Positions 1,766 to 48,161 of a stretch of 64,000 nt of DNA are shown here, in pieces. The DNA comes from Neolewinella xylanilytica (GTDB lineage: Bacteria > Bacteroidota > Bacteroidia > Chitinophagales > Saprospiraceae): positions 186,001 through 250,000 of the forward strand of contig NZ_PTJC01000006.1 of assembly GCF_002934605.1 (NCBI RefSeq), given 5' to 3'. The notes below the pieces were generated by a model. The model ran no database searches and was not told where the DNA came from. It saw only the letters and a program-made list of their open reading frames with translations. Numbering within the stretch: position 1 is the stretch's first letter; each line of letters opens with the position of its first letter. Both the position numbers and the translations under genes were made by a program.

Positions 1766-3028
1766 TTGTCTCTATTCGGCTTAGCACTCCGCAACCTTAT
1801 CTACCGCCCCTGGACCACGGCGCTAAGCCTGATCCTGGCGGCCCTGGGTGCCGGGCTGATCAGTTTGATCCTGCTCCTGAGCTGGCAACTGGAACAGCAG
1901 TTCGACCGGAACCTGGCGGGAATCGACCTGGTTGTCGGGGCGAAGGGGAGCCCGTTGCAGCTCATGATGTCGAGCATGTACCACATTAGTTCGCCGACGG
2001 GCAACGTGCCGCTGGCCGGGGTCAAGCCCTTTCTAAATCCGGAGCATCCCTACATCGAGCTGGCGGTGCCCCTTTCCCTCGGCGATAGCTACCGGGGAAG
2101 ACGGATCGTCGGTACGCGTCCGCAGTTTCTGGAGCTTTACGGTGCCGGGGTGGCGACGGGGGAGCTTTGGTCCGCGCCCCTGGACGTGGTAGCCGGGGCG
2201 ACGGCAGCGCGGGAGCTGGGCCTCCGGGTAGGGGATACCTTCCAAAGTAGCCACGGCCTGGTCGAGGACGACGACCTGACCCACCGGGACGCGGCGCCCT
2301 TTACCGTTACGGGCATCCTGGCTCCCACCGGAACCGTAGCCGACCTCGTGCTGCTCACCCCGACCGAAAGCCTGTGGGCGGTTCACGATACGCACGAGCA
2401 CGCGGAGGAGGGTGAGGGAGCCGATCACGACCACGGGGAAGAAAGCGAGTACGACGTAACCGCACCATTGACGGCCTACGACGACGAATCGATCACCTCC
2501 GTGATGCTTAAGTTCAAGGGGACGAGCGTAGTCGGGTTGAATATGCAGCGAAGCATCAACGAGAATACGGAGATGCAGGCCGTTACCCCGAGCATTCAGT
2601 TGACCGAGTTGTACTCGACAGTGGGGCAGGGGGAGGAAGTACTCCGGCAGCTGGGTTACGTAGTGGTGGTGGTGAGCATACTGAGCATCTTCATCGGACT
2701 TTATAGTTCGCTGGATCGTCGGCGGGGCGAACTGGCCCTGCTTCGGACCCTGGGTGCCGGGCCGGGTAAACTGTTCGGGCTGCTGCTGCTGGAAGGAACG
2801 ATCACCGCCGTGGTCGGAGCCATGCTGGGGCTGCTGGCCAGTCACCTCGGGCTACTCCTGGTAGCGAGATACTTTTCCCGGGCTTACCGATATGATTTTC
2901 AGTCCTTCATCTTCCTACCCGGGGAGGTTTACCTGCTGATCGGTGCGGTCGTGGTAGGAGCCCTCGCCGCGACCATCCCCGCCCTGCGTGCCGCCCGCAC
3001 CGACGTACACCGTACCCTTAGCGGGTGA
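1766..3028 (+). CDS. ABC transporter permease, FtsX/MacB family, with His/Asp/Glu-rich loop
   Basis: Inner-membrane subunit partnered with the upstream ATPase. The 420 aa protein has one N-terminal membrane segment (about 18-40), a large extracytoplasmic domain (MacB-type) and three C-terminal segments in the FtsX region (about 292-410). The periplasmic domain contains an unusual run at 207-230 with six His and many Asp/Glu residues, which suggests metal binding but does not prove it. The start is TTG at 1766, 2 nt after the ATPase stop; no in-frame ATG lies near. No periplasmic adaptor or outer-membrane channel gene is next to it. It ends 3 nt from the convergent GMC gene. Confidence 0.88.
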   Translation: MSLFGLALRNLIYRPWTTALSLILAALGAGLISLILLLSWQLEQQFDRNLAGIDLVVGAKGSPLQLMMSSMYHISSPTGNVPLAGVKPFLNPEHPYIELAVPLSLGDSYRGRRIVGTRPQFLELYGAGVATGELWSAPLDVVAGATAARELGLRVGDTFQSSHGLVEDDDLTHRDAAPFTVTGILAPTGTVADLVLLTPTESLWAVHDTHEHAEEGEGADHDHGEESEYDVTAPLTAYDDESITSVMLKFKGTSVVGLNMQRSINENTEMQAVTPSIQLTELYSTVGQGEEVLRQLGYVVVVVSILSIFIGLYSSLDRRRGELALLRTLGAGPGKLFGLLLLEGTITAVVGAMLGLLASHLGLLLVARYFSRAYRYDFQSFIFLPGEVYLLIGAVVVGALAATIPALRAARTDVHRTLSG

Positions 3029-3031
3029 GCG

Positions 3032-4744
3032 TTAGATCGTACCGTTCTTCTTCAGTTCCTTGTCCAGGTAGTCCACCGCTCGGGCCGTCATGGCCATATA
3101 CGTTATCGACGGATTTTGGGTGCCGGAGCTGGTCATGAAGCTACCGTCGGTTAGGAAGACGTTGGGGACGGCGTGGACCTGATTCCACTGATTCAGTACA
3201 CTGCTGCGTGGATCGCGGCCCATGCGGGCGGTTCCCATCTCGTGAATACACGCACCCACCGCGGTCGGGCTATTGTAGGTCGTTATATCCTTATAGCCGG
3301 CGGCCTCCATCATTTCGGCGAGGGCGTTCACGCCGTCTTCGCGCAACTTGCGTTCGTTTTCCTTGAGTCCGGCGTCGAAGACGAGGGTGGGAATGCCGTA
3401 CTGGTCGGTTTTGTCCTCGCTGAGGAATACGCGGTTATCGTGGTAGGGCAGCAATTCGCCGAAACAGGTCGCCTGAAAGCGCCAGGGCCCCGGGGTGCTG
3501 ATCGCCTTCTTGAATTCCGGTCCGAGTGGAGCGTTCATGTCCGTGACGCGATCGATGCCCCCCTGGTAGCCGTAGCCGCGCAGGAAGTCCTGGCGGGTTG
3601 CCTCGTTGATGTTCCGGAATCGGGGGATGTAAAAGCCACGATTGGGCTTCCTGCCTTTGTAATACTGATCCTCCATTCCCTCGAAAACGCCCGATCCGCC
3701 CATACCGTAATGGTGGTCCATGAGGTTGTGGCCGAGCTCGCCGCTATCGTTGCCGAGGCCGTCCGGGAAGCGCTCGGATTTGCTGTTGAGCAGAATCGCG
3801 GTGGAGCCGATGGTGCTGGCGTTGCAGAACACTACCTGACTGAAATACTCCCGCGTTTCCTTGGTTTCGGCGTCGATCACGTTCACCCCCGTGACGCGCT
3901 GGGTAGCATCGTCGAAGATTAGCGAATGGACGATGCTGTGGGCCACGATGGTCAGATTGCCGGTTTCCTGGGCAACGGGGATCGTGGAAGACAGGCTGCT
4001 GAAATAGCCGCCGTAGGGGCAGCCGCGCCAGCAGCGATTCCGGGCCTGGCACTGCCCGCGGGTACCGTGGTGCAGTTCGGGGATATACTGGGTGAGGTTG
4101 GCAGTACGGGCCGAGATCACGTTCCGCTCGGGGAAGGTCCGCTCTACCGCCTGCTTGAACTGATCCTCCGCGCAGTTCAGCTGGAAGGGCGGAAGGAACT
4201 CTCCGTCCGGGAGGTGGGAAAGACCGTCCTTGTTCCCCTGGATACCAACGAATTTTTCCACGTAGGAATACCAGGGTTCGATGTCGGCGTAACGGATCGG
4301 CCAGTCGACGGCTACTCCATCTTTAAGGTTGGCCTCGAAGTCCAGGTCGCTCCACCGGTAACACTGCCTGCCCCACATGATGGACCGTCCACCGAGGTGG
4401 TGGCCCCGGATCCAGTCGAAGCGCTGGATTTCGTCGTAGTCGTACTCGTCGTCCTTGACGATCCAGGGTTTATTATCCTCGTTGACCCACCAGTTCAGTC
4501 GGTTCTGCTTGTAGTAATGGGCGACAATTTCCTCGCGGGAGACTTTATTCTGAATCCCCAGGTCCCAGGTATCCAGGTTGGCGGTGGGGTAGTCGCCGTG
4601 CTCTACCATGCGTCCGCGCTCGAGCATCAGTACCCGGTAGCCCTTTTTGCAGAGTTCCATGGCGGCGTAACCCCCGCTGATGCCGGAACCGATAACAATA
4701 GCATCGTAAGTGACCTCGTCGCGGCCCTGGGAGTTAAATTTCAT
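3032..4744 (-). CDS. GMC-family FAD dehydrogenase (gluconate 2-dehydrogenase / FAD-glucose dehydrogenase large-subunit type)
   Basis: Flavin-dependent alcohol or sugar oxidoreductase of 570 aa. FAD is bound by the N-terminal Rossmann motif GSGISGG (19-25), and the GMC C-terminal domain (IHEMGTARMG, then NPSITYMAMT) is complete. Cys232, Cys238 and Cys242 have the C-x5-C-x3-C spacing which, as I recall, ligates a 3Fe-4S cluster in bacterial FAD-glucose dehydrogenase. There is no signal peptide; export may ride on the Tat signal of the small subunit encoded upstream. It is paralogous to the GMC gene at 5473-7194, including an almost identical N-terminus (MKFNSQG). Last gene of the cassette; substrate unknown. 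Confidence 0.9.
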   Translation of the reverse strand: MKFNSQGRDEVTYDAIVIGSGISGGYAAMELCKKGYRVLMLERGRMVEHGDYPTANLDTWDLGIQNKVSREEIVAHYYKQNRLNWWVNEDNKPWIVKDDEYDYDEIQRFDWIRGHHLGGRSIMWGRQCYRWSDLDFEANLKDGVAVDWPIRYADIEPWYSYVEKFVGIQGNKDGLSHLPDGEFLPPFQLNCAEDQFKQAVERTFPERNVISARTANLTQYIPELHHGTRGQCQARNRCWRGCPYGGYFSSLSSTIPVAQETGNLTIVAHSIVHSLIFDDATQRVTGVNVIDAETKETREYFSQVVFCNASTIGSTAILLNSKSERFPDGLGNDSGELGHNLMDHHYGMGGSGVFEGMEDQYYKGRKPNRGFYIPRFRNINEATRQDFLRGYGYQGGIDRVTDMNAPLGPEFKKAISTPGPWRFQATCFGELLPYHDNRVFLSEDKTDQYGIPTLVFDAGLKENERKLREDGVNALAEMMEAAGYKDITTYNSPTAVGACIHEMGTARMGRDPRSSVLNQWNQVHAVPNVFLTDGSFMTSSGTQNPSITYMAMTARAVDYLDKELKKNGTI

Positions 4745-36785: not shown

Positions 36786-36898
36786 TCGCTGGCTTCGCCA
36801 GCTCTTTAGTCTTTTAGGGGGAGTCTTTTAGTCGGCTGGCTTCGCCATCCGGGGTAGTCTTTTAGTTGGCTGGCTTCGCCATCCGGGTAGTGGGGCAG
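36783..36898. repeat. Hairpin-repeat block, three GGCTTCGCC cores
   Basis: Cores at 36791, 36838 and 36872 sit in TAGTC/CTTTTAG-rich linkers. The first forms a perfect hairpin GCTGGC-TTC-GCCAGC. The block fills the space between two convergent genes, so it may serve as a bidirectional terminator. Same family as 41901-42290, 42500-42568 and 45756-46003. Confidence 0.65.
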
Positions 36899-41915: not shown

Positions 41916-42290
41916 GGGGAGTGGGGTAGTCTTTTAGTTCGTTAGTGGTGCAGTGGACGAGGCCTGGGATTTGGGGTTGTTGCCTGGGATTTGGTCGCTG
42001 ACCTGTATAGTCGCTAGCTGCGCTATCTCATTAGTCGTCGGCTTCGCCGTCGGGTAGTCTTTTAGTTCGTTAGTGGTGCGGTGGACGAGGCCTGGGATTT
42101 GGTAGTCGCTAGCTGCGCTATCTCATTAGTCGTCGGCTTCGCCGTCGGGTAGTCTTTTAGTTCGTTAGTGGTGCGGTGAGCGGGGCCTGGGATTTGGTAG
42201 TCGCTAGCTGCGCTATCTCATTAGTCGTCGGCTTCGCGGTTGGGTAGTCTTAGTTCGTTAGTGGTGCGGTGAGCGGGGCCTGGGATTTGG
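41901..42290. repeat. 95-bp tandem repeat array (about 3.5 units) abutting phrB
   Basis: Unit starts (GTAGTCTTTTAG) lie at 41926, 42054, 42149 and 42244; the last three are 95 nt apart, and the first unit has an extra 33 nt. Each complete unit contains CGTCGGCTTCGCCGTCGG and TCGCTAGCTGCGCTATC hairpins. The edge next to phrB carries the core GCTGGCTTCGCCAT, which overlaps codons 1-5 of phrB. The 41916-42565 gap has no gene that I can support. Confidence 0.8.
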
Positions 42291-42499: not shown

Positions 42500-42568
42500 C
42501 TAACAGACTAACGAACTAACAGACTACCCCGCATGGCGAAGCCAGCCGACTAACAGACTACCCGACTA
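42500..42568. repeat. Hairpin-repeat block flush with the stop codon of the 42566 gene
   Basis: GACTAAC/GACTACC linkers surround one GGCGAAGCC core (42534-42542), the reverse of the other arrays. Read on the minus strand, the block begins with the TAG stop of the gene at 42566. Confidence 0.6.
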
Positions 42569-44586: not shown

Positions 44587-45324
44587 ATGAAACATTCCCT
44601 CACTCGCCTGACGGCCTTCGTCGGCAGGCACTGGCTGCGGCTTGGCCTGATCGGCTGCGCCCTCTTCCTGCTCTCCCAGAAGCAGGTCAACTTCAACGTA
44701 AAACTCGGGCATCCGGACGGTAGCGAACCAGTTCCGGCCCTGAGTCCGGAGTCACCGACGGTGCCGGCACCAACCGATGCCCCCGTCACCTACTATACCG
44801 ACGAGGGTGGGGCGGCGGTCCGGTCGGGGGGCTTCTTCTCCCGCTTCAACTTCTTCGGAGGCGACGAGCCGGACCTGTTCGACCGACTCACCGGAGTGCC
44901 GGATGCGGAAGTGGAAGCCTTTTTGACCCGCTTTGCCCATGTCGCCCAGGCCGAACAGGAAAAATTCGGTATCCCGGCGAGCGTTATCCTGGCTACGGGG
45001 CTGCTGTATAGCCGGGGGGGGCAGTCGGCTCCGGTGCGGGAACTAAACAACTATTTTTACCTTTCCTGTGGGGCGGACTGGCAGGGCGCGACGGGCCAGT
45101 CGGAAGGACAATGCCTGCGACGCTACGAGAGTGCCTGGACGAGCTTCCGCGACTTCAGCCTGACGCTCACCGGGGGCGAGTTTTCCCAGCTAGCGCAGTT
45201 TGGTCCGCGCGATTACCGCCGCTGGTCGGCCGGTATGCAAGAGCTCGGTTTGCTTGGCAACGACCGGCTCGCTTCCGAAATTCAGCGGACGATCGATCGC
45301 TACCAGTTGTTCCGATTCGATTAG
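44587..45324 (+). CDS. Glucosaminidase (GH73)-domain protein with Tyr in place of the catalytic Glu
   Basis: 245 aa. An N-terminal membrane anchor (about 17-30) and a low-complexity linker precede a GH73/LYZ2-like domain (112-245). Family members read GLLES at the catalytic position; here the line is PASVILATGLLYSRGG, so Glu is replaced by Tyr141. The rest of the fold is preserved (NNYFYLSCGADW, YESAWTSFRDFSLTL). It probably binds peptidoglycan without cutting it, unless another acid substitutes. Convergent with the DUF5606 gene, 11 nt apart. Confidence 0.82.
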   Translation: MKHSLTRLTAFVGRHWLRLGLIGCALFLLSQKQVNFNVKLGHPDGSEPVPALSPESPTVPAPTDAPVTYYTDEGGAAVRSGGFFSRFNFFGGDEPDLFDRLTGVPDAEVEAFLTRFAHVAQAEQEKFGIPASVILATGLLYSRGGQSAPVRELNNYFYLSCGADWQGATGQSEGQCLRRYESAWTSFRDFSLTLTGGEFSQLAQFGPRDYRRWSAGMQELGLLGNDRLASEIQRTIDRYQLFRFD

Positions 45325-45335
45325 TCGGGAGGTGA

Positions 45336-45743
45336 CTACTCTTCCTCTTCTCCCAGCTTTTCAAACAGTTGGTTGGCAAGCAGGTAATGGTACCACTTGA
45401 GCAGACGCTTAACGTCACTGCTGTGGACCCGCTCCTTATCATAGGTCGGCAATACGTCCTCGAAATAATCGAAGAGCCGCTCGCTCGTTTCGTTGGCGGC
45501 CGGGGCGGGGTTATCCTCCTGCTGTTCCAGCATCCGGTCGAATACCTTGCGTAGGGGCTCGGCGTCCCCGTCATCGGTATAAACGGCCATGCTTTCGAGG
45601 GGGGCGAATTGGTGCTTACGGGCCGGGGCGAAGCGACGCTTGCCGGATTCCATTTCTTCCACGATTACTCCTCCCTTGCGCTCTTTGACGACGGTGTAGA
45701 GTCCGGGTAATCCGGTGACGGCGATGATCTCTGCAAATTTCAT
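45336..45743 (-). CDS. DUF5606 family protein
   Basis: 135 aa cytoplasmic protein found across Bacteroidota. The N-terminal FAEIIAVTGLPGLYTVVKERKGGVIVEEMESGKRRFAPARK looks like a small beta-barrel, followed by a helical part (LKWYHYLLANQLFEKL). Function unknown. A -7-like box is 4 nt before the ATG, and beyond it the 33-bp repeat array starts at once. Confidence 0.88.
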   Translation of the reverse strand: MKFAEIIAVTGLPGLYTVVKERKGGVIVEEMESGKRRFAPARKHQFAPLESMAVYTDDGDAEPLRKVFDRMLEQQEDNPAPAANETSERLFDYFEDVLPTYDKERVHSSDVKRLLKWYHYLLANQLFEKLGEEEE

Positions 45744-45747
45744 GGGG

Positions 45748-45755
45748 CGAAGGTA
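45748..45755 (-). promoter_or_regulatory. -7 box 4 nt before the DUF5606 ATG
   Basis: Minus-strand TACCTTCG, then CCCC, then ATG at 45743. Identical to the box at 63-70. Confidence 0.45.
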
Positions 45756-46003
45756 GTTAGTATTTTAGTCGACTGGCTTCGCCATTTGGTTAGTCGGGTA
45801 GTCGAACGGCTTCGCCATTCGGTTAGTCTGTTAGTCAGCTGGCTTCGCCATCTGGTTAGTCAGGTAGTCGTCTGGCTTCGCCATTCGGTTAGTCTGTTAG
45901 TCAGCTGGCTTCGCCATCTGGTTAGTCGGGTAGTCGAACGGCTTCCGCCATTTGGTTAGTTCTTTAGTCAGTTGGCTTCGCCTTCTGGTTGGCCAGGTAG
46001 TCA
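45756..46003. repeat. 33-bp tandem repeat array, seven GGCTTCGCC units
   Basis: Cores start at 45775, 45808, 45841, 45874, 45907, 45940 and 45974; spacing is 33 nt, with one 34-nt step caused by an extra C. Units alternate between two types (CGGGTAGTC or CAGGTAGTC versus CTGTTAGTC linkers), so a 66-bp dimer seems to have been duplicated. Each core can form the hairpin TGGC-TTC-GCCA. The rest of the 45744-46169 gap is AT-rich and holds no gene. Confidence 0.85.
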
Positions 46004-46132
46004 ATGCCCGCATTCGACATACTTTTCAGCGAATTCCTTGGCGGGGAGCAAGGTAGGGTGGCCTTTGCATGGCATTCTACAGGCTGTAGTTAAATTTCTA
46101 ACAGGCTACAACTTATTGATAAACAGTTGTTT

Positions 46133-46172
46133 ACAGACTAAAAGACTAAAAAACTAAAAGACTAACGAACTA
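46133..46172. repeat. GACTAAAA-type linker repeats ending at the E1 stop codon
   Basis: AGACTAAAAGACTAAAA units run up to CTA at 46170-46172, which is the TAG stop of the E1 gene. Read on the minus strand, the stop continues TTCGTTAGTCTTTTAG, the linker sequence of the hairpin-repeat family. Confidence 0.55.
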
Positions 46173-48161
46173 ATACCCCAACAACGCCAAAACAGCCTCC
46201 TCCAGCCGTCCCTTAGGCAGGTATTGTTGTTCCAGCGCAGCTGCGAAAGGTACGGGGGTGTCCAGGCTCGCGAGGCGACGGACCGGCGCATCGAGTAATT
46301 CGAAGCAGTGTTCCCCGATCCAGGCGGCGAGCTCTCCTCCGAATCCACCGGTCAGGGACGCTTCGTGGAGGACCAGTACGCGGCTCGTCTTGGCCACGCT
46401 TTGGCGGATCGCCGCGTAGTCGAGGGGAGCTAGGGTGCGGAGGTCGATAATTTCTATATCGTGGTTCAGGGATGCTACCGTTTCCATGGCCCAGTGTACC
46501 CCGGCACCGTAAGTAAGGATGGTAAGGGCTTCGCCTTCCTTTACAATTCGGGCTTTTCCTAGCTCTCCGGGGGTGAAGCCCTGGGGCACCGGGCCGCTAA
46601 GGGACCGATATAGGCCTTTATGCTCGAAATATAGAACGGGGTTGGGATCGGCGAGGGCCGCCAGCAGGAGCGACTTCGCATCCTCCGGGGTGCTGGGGTA
46701 GACGATCTTCAGGCCGGCGACGCTGGTGAACCAGCTTTCCATGGTCTGGCTATGAAATGGTCCGGCACCGACGCCACCGCCGACGGGGAGCCGGATCACC
46801 ACATCGGCGTTTTGCCCCCAGCGGTAATGCAGCTTGGCCAGGTTGTTGACGATCTGGTTGAAGCCGCAACTGACGAAGTCGCCGAACTGCATCTCCACCA
46901 TGGCCTTGCCGCCGGCGATGCCGTACCCCAACGCCGCACCGACGACACCGCTTTCGCAGAGGGGGGTATTCCGCACCCGGTCGATACCGAATTCCTCGAC
47001 GAAGCCTTCCGTTATTTTAAAAACACCACCGTACTCGGCAATATCCTGTCCCATAAGCACTAGATCGGGATAGGCGCGCATAGCTTCCCGCAGTCCGTCG
47101 CTGATGGCATCTATGAACCGCAATTCCCGTATTTCTCCCGGCAAGGTTTGCAAGCCCGGCACCGCTGCGTACAGGTCACTCAACTCCATATCCGGATCCG
47201 CGGCGACGTCGGGCAGGTCGGCCGCCCGGGCCAGAGCGGCTTCGATCTCGCTTTTGATGGATGCGGTAAGCGTGGCCTCGAACTCGGCGGTAAGGACGCC
47301 AGTCTCGTGGAGGTAAGCTGCAAAGCGCACTACGGGATCGCGGTCCTGCCAAGCCTCGATGAGTTCGGTCGGGACGTACTTCACGCCGCTGGCCTCCTCG
47401 TGGCCGCGTACCCGAAACGTCCGGCATTCGATGAGTACCGGTTCCGGATGCGCTCGCAATTCGGCGGCCAGCTGACGCACCGTATCGAATACTTCAACGA
47501 CATTATTACCGTCGATGGAGAGGCTCCGCATCCCGTAACCGACCCCGCGGTCTGCCAGGCTGTCGCAGGCATACTGCTCGCTCACGGGGGTTGACAGGCC
47601 GTACCCATTATTCTCGATCACGAAAATCACCGGGAGCTTCCACACCGCGGCGATATTCAGCGCCTCGTGGAAATCACCCTCGCTCGTGCCTCCATCGCCG
47701 GTGAAGGCCAAACTAACCTTTGGTTCCCCCTGCATTTTGTGCCAGAGTGCCACGCCCGCGGCCAGGGCCAGTTGGGGACCGAGGTGACTGATCATGCCAA
47801 CGATGTGGTATTCGCGGGAGCCGAAGTGGAAGCTTCTGTCCCGCCCCTTGGTGAATCCACCGGGCTTGCCTTGCCACTGGGCGAAGAGCCGGTCCAGGGG
47901 TACCTCCCGACTGGTGAACACGCCCAGGTTCCGGTGCATCGTGAAGACGAATTCGTCGGGCTGGAGGGCCAGCGTACACCCCACACTGATGGCTTCTTGA
48001 CCGATACCAGAGAACCACTTGGAGATCACCCCGCCGCGTAACTGCTTGAGCATTTTCTCCTCGATAAGGCGGGGCCGGAGCAGTTGCTCGTAGAGCCGGA
48101 GCAAGGTTGCCTCGTCGAGAGAATGGCCGGAAAAGGACAGCGGAGCAGTGGTGGCGGTCAT
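46170..48161 (-). CDS. 2-oxoacid dehydrogenase E1, fused alpha and beta subunits (branched-chain type)
   Basis: 663 aa ThDP enzyme. Residues 1 to about 310 are E1-alpha (GIGQEAISVGCTLAL; ThDP/Mg motif in TGDGGTSEGDFHEALNIAA ... ENNGYGLSTP). Residues from about 335 on are E1-beta (RFIDAISDGLREAM ... VLMGQDIAEYGG, GGGVGAGPFHSQTMESW, then the C-terminal transketolase domain). Such fusions are common in Bacteroidota and usually act as branched-chain 2-oxoacid or pyruvate-type E1. No E2/E3 gene is adjacent. A -7-like box lies 4 nt upstream. Confidence 0.92.
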   Translation of the reverse strand: MTATTAPLSFSGHSLDEATLLRLYEQLLRPRLIEEKMLKQLRGGVISKWFSGIGQEAISVGCTLALQPDEFVFTMHRNLGVFTSREVPLDRLFAQWQGKPGGFTKGRDRSFHFGSREYHIVGMISHLGPQLALAAGVALWHKMQGEPKVSLAFTGDGGTSEGDFHEALNIAAVWKLPVIFVIENNGYGLSTPVSEQYACDSLADRGVGYGMRSLSIDGNNVVEVFDTVRQLAAELRAHPEPVLIECRTFRVRGHEEASGVKYVPTELIEAWQDRDPVVRFAAYLHETGVLTAEFEATLTASIKSEIEAALARAADLPDVAADPDMELSDLYAAVPGLQTLPGEIRELRFIDAISDGLREAMRAYPDLVLMGQDIAEYGGVFKITEGFVEEFGIDRVRNTPLCESGVVGAALGYGIAGGKAMVEMQFGDFVSCGFNQIVNNLAKLHYRWGQNADVVIRLPVGGGVGAGPFHSQTMESWFTSVAGLKIVYPSTPEDAKSLLLAALADPNPVLYFEHKGLYRSLSGPVPQGFTPGELGKARIVKEGEALTILTYGAGVHWAMETVASLNHDIEIIDLRTLAPLDYAAIRQSVAKTSRVLVLHEASLTGGFGGELAAWIGEHCFELLDAPVRRLASLDTPVPFAAALEQQYLPKGRLEEAVLALLGY

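Follow-up and report, generated by a model that had tools for sequence, protein, structure and literature searches.

A tandem hairpin array upstream of a DUF5606 gene in Neolewinella xylanilytica belongs to a dispersed family of polar intergenic repeats

Structure of the array and its spacer

The window analyzed here, a stretch of 64,000 nucleotides of the N. xylanilytica genome, contains a tandem array between two genes of the minus strand, a fused E1 dehydrogenase gene and a DUF5606/DUF6852 gene. The array fills 247 of the 426 bases of the spacer and lies between the DUF5606 promoter and E1, as the initial annotation had placed it. The features considered below are as follows.

36817-36891, plus strand: related array, period 34, matching the array DNA (as G000:C2:222783-222898)
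42008-42290, plus strand: related array, period 95, three copies, TAGTC orientation (Tandem Repeats Finder)
42506-42568, minus strand: GACTA octamers facing the 42008-42290 array (octamer match)
45336-45743, minus strand: DUF5606/DUF6852 gene, downstream of the array (gene call)
45748-45755, minus strand: TACCTTCG box, probable -7 promoter element of DUF5606 (sequence)
45756-46002, plus strand: array of 33-bp units ordered as 66-bp dimers, its TAGTC on the plus strand and pointing away from the DUF5606 start
45940-45949, plus strand: sixth core, a variant (GGCTTCCGCC) that is one base longer (read from the sequence)
46135-46173, minus strand: facing arm of GACTA octamers beside the E1 3' end, with an exact pair at 46136-46148
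46170-48161, minus strand: fused E1 dehydrogenase gene, upstream of the spacer (gene call)

Tandem Repeats Finder described the array both as 7.2 copies of a 33-base period (45766-46002, 76% matches) and as 3.7 copies of a 66-base period (45756-46002, 87% matches). When the one extra base was skipped, self-identity was 0.766 at a lag of 33, 0.873 at 66, 0.764 at 99 and 0.878 at 132. These maxima at 66 and 132 bp show that the dimer order is a true one with two alternating unit types, and the tandem array of 33-bp units in 66-bp dimers claimed initially is upheld (87% identity at lag 66 versus 77% at lag 33). When the extra base was kept, the highest identity at lags from 20 to 100 was 0.709, versus a maximum of 0.426 in 500 dinucleotide-preserving shuffles, confirming that the array is real and above chance. 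The copy number is that of one strain's assembly and may contain an assembly error; the contig that carries the array is 2.1 Mb long.

Six cores match GGCTTCGCC exactly, starting at 45775, 45808, 45841, 45874, 45907 and 45974. Thus, of the seven cores originally described at a constant 33-nt spacing, six stand, and the core at 45940 is GGCTTCCGCC, whose extra base makes the final spacing 34. A typical unit consists of two TAGTC words 8 bases apart and a small hairpin around GGC-TTC-GCC. The array is intergenic and all six frames of 45756-46003 contain stop codons (1 to 9 per 82 codons in each frame), in agreement with the claim that it is not needed for coding. A CRISPR array was rejected, because the units are contiguous and alike throughout, without unique spacers between identical repeats. 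No RNA match to Rfam and no tRNA were found in the window.

The array ends directly upstream of the TACCTTCG box, which we take, from the Bacteroidota consensus, to be the probable -7 element of the DUF5606 promoter. The motif TACCTT[TC]G was present upstream of DUF5606 at 20 of 20 loci of the genus, that of N. xylanilytica included; for G158 (L251), whose stretch yielded no E1 gene, the 499 bases preceding DUF5606 were used. At the other 19 DUF5606 loci, the array is absent or degenerate, and its copy number is not conserved in the orthologous spacers. The spacer of the closest relative, G160, whose DUF5606 is the most similar to that of N. xylanilytica (93%), holds a shorter, degenerate version with fewer units (two exact cores and four GACTA words, versus six and 13 here). 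By E1, the nearest named relatives were Lewinella sp. and Neolewinella. The E1-DUF5606 spacer of Neolewinella maritima (L055) carries different, larger inverted repeats.

A dispersed intergenic family and its orientation

The array belongs to a dispersed family in which TAGTCNNN octamers are mixed with small GGC-TTC-GCC hairpins. The octamer pair, TAGTCNNNTAGTC, had 243 matches in the N. xylanilytica genome versus 7 for the reversed control, and the octamer pair together with the core had 15 versus 0. A genome-wide search with the array DNA itself, a check suggested with the initial annotation, gave 15 matches in this genome (14 besides itself), four in G160, of which one is the orthologous spacer, and none in the 19 others. 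Neither this family, nor its polarity, nor the facing arm at 46135-46173 had figured in that annotation. Across the 21 genomes of the genus, octamer pairs ranged from 3 to 243. G160, although close to N. xylanilytica by DUF5606, has 8 pairs versus 243, indicating that the family grew or shrank fast. Among 147 genomes sampled from other Saprospiraceae genera, nearly all had no more pairs than control matches. One genome of another genus (G082) was a clear exception, with 57 pairs versus 9 in the control, which may represent a second expansion; TAGTCCGTTAGTC was common among the matches listed for it.

We examined 135 of the 243 pairs of N. xylanilytica (the window, contig C1 with its 93 listed pairs, and five loci on C2, C3 and C5, of which L155 was taken from the octamer list and four were picked for octamer plus core), together with 90 of 94 pairs in G157 and 59 of 59 in G116. 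Octamer clusters lay outside predicted genes in 30 of 32 cases in N. xylanilytica, 57 of 58 in G157 and 42 of 48 in G116. The NNN bases of the octamer were species-typical across many loci and varied within one array: TTT (70), GGG (35) and TGT (15) were frequent among the 135 pairs of N. xylanilytica, GGG accounted for 70 of the 90 pairs in G157, and TGG (13), AAG (11) and AAA (8) were found among the 59 pairs in G116. With TTT as the commonest spacer, G-quadruplex potential is not a feature of the family as a whole, although individual arrays with GGG units may differ.

Several arrays differ in composition. At about 2823-3183 of L150, an 85-bp composite array contains five copies, each with GACTACCCGACTA. 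Arrays with GGCTTCGCC are built elsewhere of other units, namely the 17-bp GGCTTCGCCTTTTAGAC in G163 and a 32-bp unit in G157. Seven-base GGTTGTC repeats, perhaps a second family, occur in spacers of the octamer type (L147, about 2878-3197; L158, about 2832-2900).

The repeats are oriented with respect to the nearest predicted gene. Gene ends were predicted with a custom codon-score gene finder, retrained for each genome (cluster polarity) or each locus (5-mers). Of the 33 intergenic clusters examined in N. xylanilytica, 31 had TAGTC pointing away from the nearest gene (p = 1.3e-7; this and the following p values are binomial and take clusters as independent), including 22 of 24 on the fully listed contig C1 (p = 3.6e-5). 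Outward clusters were likewise in the majority in G157 (48 of 57, p = 1.5e-7) and G116 (30 of 42, p = 0.008). Clusters with at least two pairs were outward in 17 of 20 cases in G157 and 8 of 9 in G116; the single pairs of G116 were outward in 22 of 33 and thus showed weaker polarity. The two inward clusters of N. xylanilytica lie 141 and 75 bases, and 121 and 119 bases, from their two neighbours. Among the 31 outward clusters, 23 were nearest a 3' gene end and 8 a 5' end, and the polarity held in 8 of 8 clusters at 5' ends. Further, wherever two arms lay within 400 bases of each other, TAGTC preceded GACTA (23 of 23: 4 in N. xylanilytica, 4 in G116 and 15 in G157). In L206, L215 and L219 of G157, the facing arms share a similar apex of about 20 bases, and some could be complete palindromic elements.

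Of the 5-mers with 15 or more occurrences in spacers, TAGTC was the most polar in the window (35 outward, 6 inward), a count dominated by the array at 45756-46002. It was also the most polar 5-mer in the loci of N. xylanilytica and G157 and the third most polar in those of G116, all of them chosen for the repeat. From 80 loci fetched by E1, 14 were used for word polarity, 15 for the spacer comparison and nine as an unselected control. Single TAGTC words in the 14 loci of relatives, fetched by E1 and not by repeats, showed no polarity (20 outward versus 22 inward); among these loci, the outward and inward counts were 17 and 7 in L052-L057 and 2 and 8 in L058. Polarity is a property of the arrays and not of the word.

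Alternative readings of the repeats

One alternative, which we regard as unlikely, is that the repeats act as bidirectional transcription barriers or terminators: the outward arms would fold in RNA transcribed out of a gene, making RNA polymerase stop or pause, and arrays would be retained where genes converge. Array spacers were convergent in 14 of 28 cases in N. xylanilytica and 13 of 41 in G157, versus 10 of 95 in the control of nine unselected genus loci (Fisher p = 2e-5 and 0.005, respectively). However, they were not enriched in G116 (5 of 32), and the enrichment may simply reflect that spacers without promoters tolerate repeats, which explains it as well as a function does. Divergent spacers made up 1 of 28, 4 of 41 and 8 of 32 array spacers in N. 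xylanilytica, G157 and G116, respectively, versus 21 of 95 in the control. On both strands, folding of the E1-DUF5606 spacer is stronger than that of shuffled sequences (z -4.4 and -4.9), which favors a barrier and is also what hairpin-bearing repeats would give.

The evidence for terminators across the family was mixed. In N. xylanilytica, a custom scan found terminator-like sites in 17 of 28 array spacers versus 26 of 91 spacers without arrays, although the scan may be picking up the arrays' own T-runs and hairpins. The trend was reversed in G157 (9 of 41 versus 37 of 85), there was no clear difference in G116 (14 of 32 versus 23 of 78), and the region 45300-46500 contained no terminator-like site (a GC hairpin followed by a T-run), versus 1.7 expected. 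Further, the outward polarity extends to the 5' ends of genes (8 of 8 in N. xylanilytica).

It is improbable, in our judgment, that TAGTCNNN units are added directionally, outward from genes, through telomere-like extension of the 3' ends of intergenic breaks with a preferred octamer, followed by rejoining. Such extension would yield the order left gene, TAGTC ... GACTA, right gene regardless of gene direction. It would account for the facing order, for the unequal lengths of arms and for a polarity that holds at 5' as well as 3' gene ends. It could also be applied to the Xanthomonas heptamers considered below. The variation of NNN within one array speaks against it. All 21 genus genomes lack Ku, and rejoining of extended ends would therefore need another route.

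We similarly doubt that the family serves as a fence of stop codons, in which a TAG octamer with a period not divisible by three would close every reading frame over the 24 bases that follow a gene. The TAG of an array is indeed the predicted stop codon at seven intergenic clusters of N. xylanilytica (distance -3). However, 5' ends, where TAG sits on the antisense strand, are equally polar, and a gene running into any such array would stop there regardless.

Mobilization of the family as REP-like elements by a RAYT (Y1) transposase is very improbable. The repeats are dispersed, intergenic and hairpin-bearing, as this would lead one to expect, and Y1_Tnp genes are present in 20 of the 21 genus genomes, with three in N. 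xylanilytica. However, octamer pairs occurred at none of the 20 Y1_Tnp loci fetched from the genus, the three loci of N. xylanilytica contained isolated TAGTC or GACTA words only, and other inverted repeats were present in the flanks of 15 of the 20 (a count made without a control, and in L277 consisting only of an N-run). Y1 transposase genes with similar inverted repeats of their own on one or both sides were seen in L263, L265, L266, L269, L274 and L278, all from other genomes of the genus, for example at positions 876 and 1495 in L269, 695 and 1412 in L278, and 736 and 1658 in L274. These loci look like an ordinary REP/RAYT system within the genus.

Equally remote is the binding of a nucleoid protein or a DUF5606 regulator to a helically phased array, as the near-regular 33-bp spacing directly upstream of the DUF5606 promoter box might suggest and as the initial annotation implied in placing all cores on one DNA face. 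With 10.5 bp per turn, 33 bp makes 3.14 turns, and each unit is displaced by about 51 degrees from the one before. Exact sister cores elsewhere in the genome lie 25, 34, 36, 41, 44, 47, 92 and 95 bp apart, and the array is absent or degenerate at the other DUF5606 loci of the genus.

Local amplification and comparison with known repeats

We consider it probable (about 0.7) that the array arose when one member of a dispersed family of polar, intergenic short tandem repeats of the Neolewinella group was amplified locally. Two octamers and one hairpin would have combined into the 33-bp unit and two unit types into the 66-bp dimer. The dimer may then have been multiplied by slippage during replication or by unequal recombination, and the analysis supports the amplified dimer that the initial annotation had proposed. 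Unit number was seen to differ between species, and no variation or expansion was observed at the strain level. Many loci share a unit type, and copying between loci is therefore needed in addition, for which local slippage is insufficient; no agent that copies units between loci was found. The facing arms could make the spacer foldable and, at most, might mildly separate E1 from DUF5606. The conserved promoter box begins where the array ends, and the array is thus probably tolerated without being required. We see in it a likely length marker and not a regulator.

Heterocystous cyanobacteria possess STRR sequences, which are degenerate short tandem seven-base units between genes. The closest parallel concerns the GGGAATC heptamers of Xanthomonas and the GGGGA(C/T)T heptamers of Nostoc, which are reported to be dispersed, degenerate tandem units, mostly intergenic, near or overlapping stop codons and leading away from the gene, with 70 and 75 facing pairs in two Xanthomonas genomes and with no function found (PMC4692102). 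Like these heptamers, the present family is tandem at many loci (243 matches versus 7), intergenic (30 of 32), outward (31 of 33) and arranged in facing pairs (23 of 23). In contrast to the G-rich, G-quadruplex-capable heptamers, the unit here is an octamer whose commonest spacer is TTT (70 of 135); further, hairpins join the octamers into composites of 33, 34, 85 and 95 bp, and the host belongs to another phylum.

Five Bacteroidetes, along with Beggiatoaceae and Cyanobacteria, are described as carrying TAACTGA heptamers, intergenic direct repeats whose forward strand contains stop codons; in the BOGUAY genome they often lie just upstream of start codons, mostly in one orientation, and the orientation sampled in Microcystis is mixed (PMC4679880). 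The present family resembles them in being intergenic and in occurring in Bacteroidetes, and differs in being an octamer of another sequence. Further, the TAACTGA repeats of BOGUAY lie mainly at 5' ends, whereas 23 of the 31 outward clusters here were nearest a 3' end. No description of the TAGTC family was found in the open-access literature searched. What is new here is an octamer repeat, mostly without G-runs, that is mixed with hairpins into composite tandem arrays.

Outward placement has been noted previously for the G-rich heptamers of Xanthomonas and Nostoc, without an explanation. Its occurrence in a third phylum, with an octamer mostly lacking a G-run, separates the polarity from G-quadruplexes, and its cause becomes testable. 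Because the family differs so strongly between related species, with 8 versus 243 pairs, its bursts can be studied.
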